Shown piece by piece: positions 4,281-34,379 of a stretch of 64,000 bases of DNA; the first letter of the stretch is position 1, and each line of letters opens with the position of its first letter. Source of the DNA: a virus. The translations under genes and the position numbers were made by a program. The notes under the pieces were generated by a model. It worked only from the letters and a program-made list of their open reading frames with translations, had not been told where the DNA came from and ran no database searches. Where the stretch lies: positions 99,760 to 163,759 of the IMG/VR virus record IMGVR_UViG_3300030419_007436; one strand, written 5' to 3'.

Positions 4281-4309
4281 ATTATCTCACAAGGAAAGGA
4301 AATTGTCAA
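4281..4309 (-). promoter_or_regulatory. Sigma70-type promoter, early class
   Basis: TTGACA at 4304-4309, 17 bp spacer, GATAAT at 4281-4286 preceded by TGA. It drives the MoxR-type ATPase gene. Confidence 0.75.
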
Positions 4310-4335
4310 GTGTTTTTTTGTTTTTTTTTGTTTTT

Positions 4336-4971
4336 TTAGTCCAAATAATAGCGAGAAACATACCAGTGACCATTAGCCCTCTGAAGGTCATCAATTTCAC
4401 TTAGGGTGCCTTTGTCACTGCTATCGAACCAGCCCTCTGGAATTCCAAAATCAACCGCACTAGAAGAAACTGGCCCAACCACTGAGAGAATATCGTTTGC
4501 AGAGGTACAGTATCCACCGTCACCTGTTTTCATCATTCGATAAAGAATAAAGTCGCGGTGGCCTCGATTTGGGAACTGTTCCAACAGAAACCCGTTGTCT
4601 ACTCGAATCTTTTGCCACTGGATCCGTTCCACCATCGCTGTCGAATCGCCGTGATTCCAATGGGTTACAGTAAAAAGTGCGCCCGGTGCAAGGCCCTGTT
4701 CTTGAAGATAATTATAGACTTGTGCACGCATGCGTATATTCTTTATCATTAGCCCTTCGCGGTCTTGTTTCAAAGCTGGGCATGTCCTGCGAGTGTGGCC
4801 GGTTTCCTCACAATAACCACATTTTCGACCTCGACTCTTGCGCTGTTGGTCACGGCGTGCTTCATAGCTGTCAGGGTTTCTCTGAATGTACTCCTTTCTG
4901 TCGGGGCATCCGTTTTTGTTGTGTCCCGTCTTGTAACACCAACTGCAAGTAACTGTATTGTTCCAACTCAA
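4336..4971 (-). CDS. Double CCHC zinc-knuckle protein (211 aa)
   Basis: Two zinc knuckles with the pattern C-x2-C-x4-H-x4-C are plain: CSWCYKTGHNKNGC near residues 9-22 and CGYCEETGHTRRTC near 52-65, separated by a basic linker. Such knuckles bind single-stranded nucleic acid in retroviral nucleocapsids and eukaryotic RNA-binding proteins. The remaining 140 residues form an unrecognised domain. The start is a TTG with an AAAGGAG site; no ATG fits. The promoter at 5002-5030 serves it. RNA or ssDNA binding is inference. Confidence 0.75.
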   Translation of the reverse strand: MSWNNTVTCSWCYKTGHNKNGCPDRKEYIQRNPDSYEARRDQQRKSRGRKCGYCEETGHTRRTCPALKQDREGLMIKNIRMRAQVYNYLQEQGLAPGALFTVTHWNHGDSTAMVERIQWQKIRVDNGFLLEQFPNRGHRDFILYRMMKTGDGGYCTSANDILSVVGPVSSSAVDFGIPEGWFDSSDKGTLSEIDDLQRANGHWYVSRYYLD

Positions 4972-11683: not shown

Positions 11684-13258
11684 CTAGTTAGCACATTCGA
11701 TAATGGCATGATTAGTTGTGATTAAAGTGGACGCAACAGACGTTGCATTTTGTAGCGCACATCTTGTAACTTTTACTGGGTCAATAATCCCACTTTCCAC
11801 CAAATTTACCAGCTTCCCGGTATTAAAATCAATTCCCTTGTTTTCTTTTGACTTTTCCACCAAAGATAATAAAATATCAGGAGAATAGCCAGCGTTCTTT
11901 GCCATCTGTCTGAAAGGTTCTTTTACTGCCTCGCAAACTATCTGAACTCCCAGCTTTTGATCGTCATTATCTGTCGCGACTTTTAAATTTTTAGTAGCGC
12001 GTATAAGAGCCACACCTCCTCCTGAAACAACGCCCTCAAGCTGCGCGGCAGTTACCGCTTCGAGAGCATCTTCAATGCGGTGTTTTTTTTCTATCATTTC
12101 TACCTCGCTGGAGGCTCCCACTCGGATTATTGCAATACCGCTAGCAAGTCGAGTTATTCTTTCTTGTGCTTTCTCACATTCTTGCAAACTTTCCGTTTCT
12201 TTTATCTGAGCTTTTAGCAAATCAATTCTTTTTTCCACCTCATCGATGTCCCCGTTTCCACCTACTACAGTTGTAAGATTTTTAGAACTTTCAATTGATT
12301 TGGCGCGGCCAAAATGATTGAGTTTTATATCTTTTAATCTCAAATTGTTTTGTCTTGTAATGAAAGTCGCACCGACAGAAAGCGCCAAATCATTAAGAAT
12401 GCTTCGCCTTTCCTCTCCATATCTAGGCGCCTTAATCCCGGCGACGCGAAGAGTACCACGCATTGCATTCATAATTAACGCAGCAAGAGCCTGGCCTTCT
12501 ATATTTTCAGCCACGATAATAAAAGGGCGACTCTCGCGCGCCGCTATTTCTAGCGCAGGCATCATGTCCTCTACATTGTCAATGCTCTCGTCTGTGACCA
12601 TAATGAGGGGATCCTCGTAGCGCACGACACCTCTCTTTTCGTCAGTTACAAAGGCGCTAGCTAAATATCCAGAATCAAAGCGAAATCCCTCCACCAAGTC
12701 TAGACTAGTTTCAATTGATCGTGCCTCTTCGATTGTGATCGCTCCATCCTTGCCTGCAAGATCCACAGCTTTAGCAATTAAATTACCGATAAGGCTGTCA
12801 TTGTTAGCTGATATTTTTGCAATGTGGGCTATTTCCTCCTGAGACATTATGGGTTGTGCCAAAGACTTTAAATTCTCTACAATCTGCTTCAAAGCCTTAT
12901 CCATCCCTCTTTTTAGTTCTACTGGGGGCGCCCCGGCCATCAAATATTTTTGAGCCTGTGTTAAAATTGCGCGTGTTAAAACGGTAGATGTAGTGGTGCC
13001 GTCACCGGCCTCACTGTTAGTCCTTGATGCAGCCTGCTTGATAATTTCTGCACCTACATTTTCAAAAGGATCCTTTAGTTCCACAAATTTAGCTACCGTT
13101 ACTCCGTCTTTTGTAATTATTGGATTTTGCCCAGGTTGGTGTAGGATAACATTTCTTCCGCGCGGTCCAAGTGTAGAAGCCACGTTATCAGCCAGCGTAG
13201 CTGCTCCATTTAGAATTTTTTGTTGAAGATTTGTTCCCGATTCATACTGTCGCGACAT
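11684..13258 (-). CDS. groEL: Phage GroEL chaperonin
   Basis: 524 residues, close to the full bacterial length. It has TLGPRGRNV at 29-37, the ATP-site GDGTTT at 85-90, RIEDALEAVTAAQ with GVVSGGGVALIRA, and GIIDPVKVTR near the end. The C-terminal GGM repeats of bacterial GroEL are missing. Phage chaperonins fold capsid and other virion proteins, and a GroES-like partner is encoded 15 kb away (28229-28510) rather than next door. A TTGACA promoter precedes it. Confidence 0.95.
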   Translation of the reverse strand: MSRQYESGTNLQQKILNGAATLADNVASTLGPRGRNVILHQPGQNPIITKDGVTVAKFVELKDPFENVGAEIIKQAASRTNSEAGDGTTTSTVLTRAILTQAQKYLMAGAPPVELKRGMDKALKQIVENLKSLAQPIMSQEEIAHIAKISANNDSLIGNLIAKAVDLAGKDGAITIEEARSIETSLDLVEGFRFDSGYLASAFVTDEKRGVVRYEDPLIMVTDESIDNVEDMMPALEIAARESRPFIIVAENIEGQALAALIMNAMRGTLRVAGIKAPRYGEERRSILNDLALSVGATFITRQNNLRLKDIKLNHFGRAKSIESSKNLTTVVGGNGDIDEVEKRIDLLKAQIKETESLQECEKAQERITRLASGIAIIRVGASSEVEMIEKKHRIEDALEAVTAAQLEGVVSGGGVALIRATKNLKVATDNDDQKLGVQIVCEAVKEPFRQMAKNAGYSPDILLSLVEKSKENKGIDFNTGKLVNLVESGIIDPVKVTRCALQNATSVASTLITTNHAIIECAN

Positions 13259-17978: not shown

Positions 17979-19019
17979 TTACCTCTTTAATATATGAGTA
18001 TGGCTTTCTCCAAGCCCAGCACTTGTCTGGCGAACAAATGTGGCACGAGACTGAAGTTCTGAAATATTTCTACATCCAGAGTATGATAGACCACTCGCAA
18101 TGCCATTTTTTAAATCTTGAAGAATGTTTTTCACATCCCCTTTGTACGGAATGGTGGTTGATATTCCTTCATCAGAAGAGTGTTCTCCTCTCCAATCAAA
18201 CTGTGCTTCTTTGCTTGCCATCCCCCGATAAACTTTATTTTTAATACCTCTTGCAGTTTGAATTAATTCGCCGGGCGATTGATCTGTACCGGCTAGAACA
18301 GAGCCAAGCATTACAAAATCGGCTCCGGCGGCAATTGCCTTAACCATGTCTCCACTATTGCGCAAGCCACCGTCTGCGATGATCTTAGCCGCCCTGTCGG
18401 TTTTGGCACATTGAAATATTGTTTCAAGACCAGGGACGCCATGGCCCGTTTGTATTCGAGTGGAACAAATTGAACCTCCACCAATATTACATCTTATGCT
18501 ATCTGCACCCCAATCAGCCAAATCATTGAAAGCCTCTAAGGTTGCGACATTTCCTGCCATCACGTGCAACTTCTCATGAAATTCAGATTTTATTTTTTTA
18601 ATTGCGTTTTTTACTAGGGCGTGGTGTCCGTGCGCAACATCCACGCAAACAATGTTTGCCCCATTTTCGTATGCGAGGGCGGCACGCGTGATGAACTTGC
18701 CCGTAACTCCAATTGCGACAGCTATGTTCGGATCTCTCATTCCTTCTCTCAAATAAGAATCATGAAGTTCCCTTACCATAGTGGACATCTCATCAATAGT
18801 GTTGTACCGGTGAATAACACCTAGTGCGCCACACTGAGCCATCGAATAAGCCATTTCACTCTCCGTTACGGTGTCCATGGGAGCAGATATAATCGGCAAA
18901 CTCAATTTTATATTTTGATCTAAGTTACTGGTAAGATCGACCTCCTTTCTGCTAATAATGTCTGAATATTTCGGAACTAATAAAACATCATCGTATGTTA
19001 ATGCTTCTTTAAATTTCAT
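17979..19019 (-). CDS. IMP dehydrogenase / GMP reductase family protein
   Basis: 346 residues, a (beta/alpha)8 barrel without CBS domains. The N-terminus ([14 protein letters not shown]), SAPMDTVTE, the catalytic loop [17 protein letters not shown] and [20 protein letters not shown] are family hallmarks. The flap ([20 protein letters not shown]) lacks the Arg-Tyr pair of IMP dehydrogenase, and the length equals GMP reductase, so GMP-to-IMP reduction is slightly favoured. Either way it alters purine nucleotide pools during infection. Confidence 0.85.
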
Positions 19020-32644: not shown

Positions 32645-32663
32645 ATTTTCCTCCTTTTTAAAG

Positions 32664-32736
32664 TACTCCCGGTAGGACTTGAACCTACGACCTGGCGGTT
32701 ATGAGCCGCTTGCTCTACCAACTGAGCTACGGGAGT
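32664..32736 (-). tRNA. tRNA with CAT anticodon (Met)
   Basis: Acceptor ACTCCCG/CGGGAGT, D-arm GCTC/GAGC, anticodon loop CTCATAA (anticodon CAT) and T-arm GTAGG TTCAAGT CCTAC are all present. CCA is not encoded. It reads as elongator Met; a lysidine-modified Ile tRNA cannot be excluded from sequence. Confidence 0.95.
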
Positions 32737-33634: not shown

Positions 33635-33747
33635 AATAACCACCCTACAGCGCAGCCAACCGTGAGGCCAAAAAGAAGCAACGAAATAAACTGCCCCACA
33701 TAATATCGCCGCTCTGCTTTTTCAATTTCATCAAATAAATCTCTCAT
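33625..33747 (-). CDS. Micro membrane protein, 40 aa
   Basis: ATG at 33747 with an AAAAGGAGAAG site. A charged N-terminus (RDLFDEIEKAERRYY) leads into one membrane helix (VGQFISLLLFGLTVGCAVGWLL). It overlaps the phosphomannomutase start, suggesting coupled translation. Function unknown. Confidence 0.6.
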   Translation of the reverse strand: MRDLFDEIEKAERRYYVGQFISLLLFGLTVGCAVGWLLWN

Positions 33748-33763
33748 CACTTCTCCTTTTTAG

Positions 33764-33953
33764 AACCAGGGGGCGGAATTGAACCACCTACCTCCGCTTC
33801 GTCCATAGATCCACTCTGCATAAGTGTTTCCGCCTTAGACCCCATCGCCACTAATTCCGGCAGGGGCGATTTTCCCCGGTTGCTCCGGTGTGTGGATCTT
33901 CGGTTTCCTACTTTATATAAACGGGCGGCGCTCTTCCGGTGAGCTACCCTGGT
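33764..33953 (-). ncRNA. tRNA-like RNA interrupted by a ~115-base structured insert
   Basis: The 5' part has acceptor ACCAGGG and a good D-arm GCTC-ACCGGAA-GAGC. The 3' part has T-arm GGTGG TTCAATT CCGCC and acceptor CCCTGGT, complementary over all 7 bp. Between them, CCGC and GCGG can form most of an anticodon stem, and inside it lies an insert closed by an 8-bp stem, AGATCCAC/GTGGATCT, holding an ATCGCC/GGCGAT hairpin. The total is 190 nt. Options are a tRNA with a small or degenerate intron, a tmRNA-like relic, or a new tRNA-mimic. The anticodon cannot be read. It is five bases from tRNA-Leu. Confidence 0.55.
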
Positions 33954-33958
33954 ATATG

Positions 33959-34042
33959 TAGCTGAAGAGGGATTCGAACCCTCACACCCGTTACGGATAA
34001 CGGATTTTAAGTCCGTTGTGTCTACCATTCCACCATTCAGCC
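33959..34042 (-). tRNA. tRNA-Leu (TAA)
   Basis: 84 nt with the long variable arm of a class II tRNA. Acceptor GGCTGAA/TTCAGCT, anticodon stem ACGGA/TCCGT with loop CTTAAAA (anticodon TAA), T-arm GAGGG TTCGAAT CCCTC. CCA is not encoded. Confidence 0.95.
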
Positions 34043-34285: not shown

Positions 34286-34305
34286 TTATTCTCCTTAAAT
34301 AATAG

Positions 34306-34379
34306 TACCCTCGACAGGATTCGAACCTGTGACTCTCGGCTTAGAAGGCCGATGCTCTATCCAACTGAGCTACGAGGGC
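34306..34379 (-). tRNA. tRNA-Arg (TCT)
   Basis: 74 nt. Acceptor GCCCTCG/CGAGGGT, D-arm GCTC/GAGC, anticodon stem TCGGC/GCCGA with loop CTTCTAA (anticodon TCT), T-arm ACAGG TTCGAAT CCTGT. CCA is not encoded. TCT reads AGA, a codon favoured in AT-rich phage genes. Confidence 0.95.

Follow-up and report, generated by a model that had tools for sequence, protein, structure and literature searches.

What is a tRNA-like RNA that has a complete cloverleaf and, in place of its anticodon loop, a long structured domain? The usual view of phage tRNA arrays is that they help translation, and the element considered here, which default tRNA finders skip, sits in such an array. It lies in a 64,000-nucleotide stretch of DNA (the window: positions 99,760 to 163,759 of IMG/VR virus record IMGVR_UViG_3300030419_007436, which has 190,629 bases). 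The source is a large tailed phage, as judged from its major head protein, tail sheath, UvsX-like recombinase, DnaB-like helicase and ribonucleotide reductase. A preliminary description had offered three readings of the locus: an unusual minimal intron, a relic, or a tRNA mimic.

The cloverleaf, its relatives and its setting

The whole RNA spans 33764..33953 (190 nt, 5′ end at 33953; 196.4 bits with covariance model R1) on the minus strand, as do all of its parts given below. The acceptor is a 7-bp stem of ACCAGGG (33947..33953) and CCCTGGT (33765..33771) that is 100% paired in all nine distinct sequences of the element, with three pairs changed on both sides; position 73 is a T (33764) and CCA is not encoded. 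The D-arm, GCTC-ACCGGAA-GAGC (33930..33944), is paired in 9/9 and invariant, and the T-arm, GGTGG-TTCAATT-CCGCC (33772..33788), has a 5-bp stem that is 97.8% paired, again with three pairs changed on both sides. Acceptor, D-arm GCTC/GAGC, T-arm loop TTCAATT and the length of 190 nt had all been picked out in the preliminary description, and all are found, on the minus strand. The anticodon stem that it gave as CCGC/GCGG is also present, but with a length of 5 bp: CCGCC (33924..33928) faces AGCGG (33794..33798), with one C-A mismatch in the window, and the stem reads CCGCC/GGCGG in the related locus L075 (95.6% paired over the nine sequences, three pairs changed on both sides). The anticodon loop itself is absent, and a structured domain takes its place.

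Neither default ARAGORN nor a standard Rfam search of the window reported the element; ARAGORN with introns allowed places it at 33763-33953. The folding energy of the window copy relative to shuffles (z = -1.15) is by itself uninformative. In a MAFFT alignment of the nine sequences, 98.1% of the cloverleaf cells are paired, with nine double-sided pair changes, and none of 500 shuffles scored as high; slid controls gave less than 50% pairing. When the acceptor, anticodon and T stems are combined with one hairpin of the insert (CACY/RGUG, described below), 99.0% of cells are paired, with 12 double-sided changes and again 0/500 shuffles as high. The element is real and conserved, far above chance. 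As read from the sequences, L092 lacks the residues for the contact between D-loop (GG) and T-loop (C56), and their presence in L090 is doubtful, so that the L-shape may not matter in every member.

Relatives were found by two routes. First, among 80 related loci retrieved by way of the neighbouring recombinase, four hold the same RNA at full length. Second, scanning IMG/VR for motifs that contained no tRNA sequence added six further contigs. The element is present in 11 IMG/VR contigs including the window, as nine distinct sequences of 178-193 nt, and all insert copies found lie within a tRNA body. Copies score 157-208 bits with the covariance model, which the sequences used for building it match by construction, yet these had been found and aligned before the model existed. 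The bodies are closest to one another (best 0.81-0.93, whereas normal tRNAs from the fetched loci reach at most 0.72) and therefore make up one family. An exact-motif scan of 84,980 bacterial and archaeal genomes gave six pattern hits, all by chance, though distant copies could escape it; no relative of the insert was found in isolated phages and plasmids. Collection type and gene content suggest that the carriers are marine phages.

The array in the window runs, on the minus strand, tRNA-Arg (TCT; 34305..34379), tRNA-Leu (TAA; 33958..34042), element, tRNA-Met (CAT; 32663..32736). The Leu gene is directly upstream of the element, and the two are probably co-transcribed. The window element has no evident promoter nearby, and its transcription therefore probably comes in from upstream. 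L075, L089 and L076 each have a perfect (12/12) sigma-70 promoter (TTGACA-17/18-TATAAT) whose end is 22 nt upstream of the element, and L040 has an 11/12 promoter ahead of the Leu tRNA-element pair; scores like these were reached 0 to 3 times in 500 shuffles. Four of the five carrier records searched hold 3-8 ordinary tRNAs, and some also have a tmRNA of their own.

Several other features were observed in these genomes. The window has a GroEL-like chaperonin gene (11684-13258) and an IMP dehydrogenase-like gene (17979-19019; PHROG “dehydrogenase” match). Among related phages, L031:5934-5982 and L034:6929-6977 each hold, just upstream of tRNA-Leu, a 49-nt tRNA-like gene in which acceptor and T-arm are present and the anticodon arm is missing; L013:15342, L046:5988 and L060:13808 are 5′ tRNA halves that end near the anticodon (GCGGCTTATAAGAGGAAA or similar), the 3′ half being absent. 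Directly downstream of the element in L091 (about 4300-4448, minus strand) is a GC-rich stretch with repeated hairpin-like words and no Rfam match.

Structure and history of the insert domain

The insert that replaces the anticodon loop occupies 33799..33923 in the window. It had been put at 115 bases; the insert is there, but 125 nt separate the two strands of the anticodon stem, of which about 114 nt are shared with relatives (roughly 113-127 nt across the family) and 11, CGTTTATATAA (33913-33923), are private to the window. The shared part begins with a conserved segment, AGTAGGAAACC (33902..33912), whose first eight bases are invariant in 9/9. A closing stem follows: AGATCC (33894..33899) pairs with GGATCT (33807..33812), and all 6 bp are paired in 9/9 and scarcely vary (AGRUCC/GGAUCU across the family). 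The preliminary description had drawn an 8-bp stem here, AGATCCAC/GTGGATCT, reaching 33892. The match exists, but only the six pairs hold in every sequence; the inner two are broken in L092 and compete with the separately supported hairpin CACY/RGUG. Covariation in the acceptor and in the 8-bp stem had been set beforehand as a test, and the acceptor does have double-sided changes; the 8-bp stem varies too little for covariation to be informative.

The CACY/RGUG hairpin is CACT-TATGCAG-AGTG in the window (33812..33826, the last base shared with the closing stem). Among relatives it takes the forms CACU/AGUG, CACC/GGUG and CGUU/AACG, with three pairs changed on both sides, and in L075 it is extended to CACUG/CAGUG. 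An inner stem joins CCGG (33885..33888) to CCGG (33857..33860); it reads CCGG/CCGG, ACGG/CCGU or ACCAG/CUGGU in the three insert types (below), in an alignment made by eye that leaves it weaker than the other stems. A possible hairpin, GGGG-AAAATCG-CCCC (33863..33877), keeps 3 bp in 9/9 as invariant bases and competes with a pairing AUCGCC/GGCGAU. The conserved core, AATTAGTGGCGATGGGGTCTAAGGCGGAAA (33827..33856), contains AGTGGC, invariant in 9/9; for the core as AGTGGCGATNGGGTC, the possible pairings are AGRUCC/GGGUCU (91.7% paired) and AUCGCC/GGCGAU (88.7%), neither with a compensatory change. Coding by a 93-aa open reading frame at 33747-34028 was considered and rejected, its frame not being kept among homologues; since the length differences among homologues are not divisible by three, the element is not coding. 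Complementarity between the insert and the rest of the phage genome amounts to 11-nt chance matches.

The inserts are of three types: A (window, L090, L091 and L092), B (L040 with its near-copies L038 and L084, L076 and L087) and C (L075 and L089). Between the window and L090, the insert is 95% identical and the body 75%; the corresponding values are 90% and 82% for L092, 86% and 82% for L091, and, between L040 and L076, 94% and 75%. The window and L075 have the opposite pattern (insert 75%, body 93%). In this comparison of nine sequences in three groups, then, the insert is often better conserved than the tRNA body, and the domain is under strong constraint. No window proteins are detectable in the 14 kb around L092, and the only window-protein matches around L091 are two distant ones (IMP dehydrogenase-like, 44%; another, 30%); because so little or nothing else is shared, insert conservation in these loci does not come from recent common descent of whole phages. 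Monophyly of type A is rejected by the alignment of the bodies (p-AU 0.010), in an exploratory test of 67 columns with the group picked post hoc. Insert and body would thus seem to have had partly different histories. Given that the bodies of the elements are closest to each other, one ancestral cassette with later exchange is favoured over repeated insertion into different tRNAs.

These patterns bear directly on one of the earlier readings, that of a relic (a decayed tRNA gene into which something was inserted by accident). Truncated tRNAs do occur in related phages, but this element is common to 11 contigs, its helices have compensatory changes and its constrained insert is often more conserved than its body, which contradicts that reading and makes it very improbable.

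Decoding tRNA, intron or scaffold

All four helices of a decoding tRNA (7-bp acceptor, D-, anticodon and T-stems) are present, three of them with compensatory changes. Its other feature, a 7-nt anticodon loop with U33, is absent from the element as it stands. Could splicing restore it? All removals between homologous alignment columns were enumerated, and at least 4/5 stem pairs, a 7-nt loop and U33 were required. The best homologous splice pair serves three of the nine sequences, and no single homologous splice does better. In L075, L076, L087 and L090, some splice pair gives U33 and a 5-bp stem; the window, L040, L038, L091 and L092 have no splice solution whatever. Anticodons proposed by ARAGORN differ between homologues (on spliced models, the program accepts loops too readily to discriminate). 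Searched by itself with the insert in place, L091 exceeds the gathering score of the Rfam tRNA model (RF00005), at 36.1 bits against 29, but it is not listed in the default search of whole loci; the window, L040 and L075 stay below that score. Comparative evidence of this kind indicates that the element is neither a decoding tRNA nor an ordinary intron.

The main rival to a scaffold is a new and very small class of self-splicing or self-cleaving intron (about 110-130 nt) in the anticodon loop, whose removal would leave a working tRNA. The insert sits exactly where tRNA introns sit and is more conserved than the body; its tree differs from that of the body, as might be expected of a mobile intron; the carriers include phages with little gene content in common; and in four loci some splice pair does produce U33 and a stem of 5 bp. 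This reading nevertheless has to accommodate the five sequences with no solution, a homologous splice pair that works in at most 3/9 and anticodons that are inconsistent between homologues. Four members were searched for a group I core (RF00028; P3-P8 with the P7 G-site) at E up to 10 and gave no match; the preliminary description likewise saw no conserved P7 sequences. An uninterrupted allele was found neither among the tRNAs of the fetched loci (with any acceptor) nor by a pattern scan of IMG/VR with the acceptor and D-stem of the window, where the single match was an unrelated tRNA-Met with CCA. An intron of the archaeal type would need a tRNA splicing endonuclease and the ligase RtcB; RtcB, RNA ligase and tRNA endonuclease are missing from five carrier records in searches whose controls worked, although the host could supply them. 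A new intron class is therefore judged unlikely, and the minimal intron proposed earlier, with neither a group I core nor a common splice pair nor an uninterrupted form, is not supported.

Alternatively, the cloverleaf itself could be what works: a tRNA mimic might titrate tRNA-binding enzymes or act as bait for a host defence that cuts tRNAs, the insert serving to block decoding or to stabilise the RNA. Maintenance of the cloverleaf helices by compensatory changes would be expected of such a molecule, and the 3-8 ordinary tRNAs in four of five searched carriers, with a tmRNA in some, are also consistent with it. Conservation of the insert, often above that of the body, is unexpected for filler, however, and two members, L092 and possibly L090, no longer have the residues for contact between D-loop and T-loop. 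A working cloverleaf is thus quite unlikely. Among the readings offered earlier the mimic came nearest; conservation of the insert, though, points to the insert as the functional part, with the tRNA as its frame.

The explanation favoured here, with moderate confidence, is accordingly a scaffold: the element is not spliced to a tRNA, and the insert is the working part, displayed on the tRNA. The alignment shows a family in which the cloverleaf and one insert hairpin are kept by compensatory changes and in which no common splice yields a canonical loop. Such an element would be transcribed with, or like, the phage tRNAs, and host RNase P and 3′ processing would trim it as they do a tRNA. The full-length 178-193-nt molecule would then persist as a stable RNA, with the cloverleaf providing tRNA-type processing and stability. 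The insert probably binds a host or phage factor, which could be a protein, an RNA or a ribosomal site, and once bound it may act as a decoy or regulator.

If this is correct, distant phage lineages would share a new design for a stable RNA regulator or decoy, a conserved domain carried by a natural tRNA, and the conserved insert offers pull-down and structural studies a well-defined object. Should the element be spliced instead, phage tRNAs would harbour a new class of very small introns. Chances seem slightly better than even for a broader statement that spans both outcomes: that the element is either a natural tRNA-scaffolded effector RNA device, passing between distant phages and acting on a host target, or the smallest class of self-splicing tRNA intron yet seen and among the first in phage tRNAs.

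Comparison with known RNA families

The element has the same general plan as tmRNA (RF00023): tRNA-like ends with an acceptor and a T-arm, and a long structured domain at the place of the anticodon arm. It differs in having an intact D-stem and anticodon stem and about half the length, and the tmRNA model gives no full match at the element. The pair C3-G70 is present in 9/9, and the alanine identity pair of tmRNA, G3-U70, is absent. A tmRNA-type tag frame was also looked for; frames and stops are not common to the homologues, whose lengths differ by non-multiples of three. Two of the genomes moreover already have a separate full tmRNA (cut-off 47 bits): that of the window phage, G000, scores 107 bits with RF00023 and lies outside the window (G000:C1:63659-64094, equivalent to L111:3659-4094, minus strand), and that of carrier G001 scores 103.9 bits. 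A miniature tmRNA-like RNA, despite the common plan, is hence hardly credible. The tmRNA of G000 has an apparent classical-looking resume frame, ANDNVEFDYALAA-stop, after its first tRNA-like part (by reading; ARAGORN chose another frame), and full tmRNA matches are found in related or carrier records G001, G005, G006 and G007.

Group I introns of the Anabaena tRNA-Leu and Azoarcus tRNA-Ile type, which are about 200-250 nt long, resemble the element in being inserted in an anticodon loop. The element has no group I match and no common splice junction, and it is clearly shorter. All phage group I introns observed up to 2014 were in protein-coding genes (review PMC3984707).

Phages also have other small RNAs near their tRNAs. 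T4 species 1 RNA (rnaC) is a small stable RNA in a phage tRNA array with a T-arm and an acceptor-like end, but it differs from the element in size and fold and does not have a complete cloverleaf. On the T4 array, model R1 matches ordinary tRNAs only, and rnaC and rnaD are not matched. The fold of T4 rnaC (L106:909-1047) is far more stable than those of its shuffles (z -4.57), and the RNA has a perfect T-arm with an acceptor-like stem at its end; neither RNAC nor RNAD has a known role (PMC3014915; PMC9697503). GOLLD and ROOL, phage ncRNAs near tRNA islands, are alike in setting only. tRNAs can occur in the GOLLD linker, and GOLLD is far larger, with many members of more than 800 nt (PMC12286853). 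There, a tRNA lies inside an ncRNA; here, a domain lies inside a tRNA. The window and carrier loci L087, L090, L091 and L092 gave no Rfam match to GOLLD or ROOL. Rfam searches of four members at E up to 10 gave, besides tRNA, chance matches; YrlA, at E 0.56, was set aside as a tRNA-like resemblance.

Decoding tRNA, group I intron, tmRNA, T4 rnaC and rnaD, and GOLLD and ROOL each fail to match the element in a defining feature, and the element is therefore probably a new kind of phage ncRNA, with no described family matched among Rfam models and in the open-access literature; if any tRNA-like ncRNA is counted as one kind, it would be a variation within that kind. A parallel to the favoured scaffold reading is a laboratory method, in which a foreign RNA is placed on the anticodon stem of an engineered tRNA for stable expression. 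PMC3753655 comes from a group using this engineered tRNA scaffold. That scaffold is a laboratory construct, and the phage element would be its natural counterpart.
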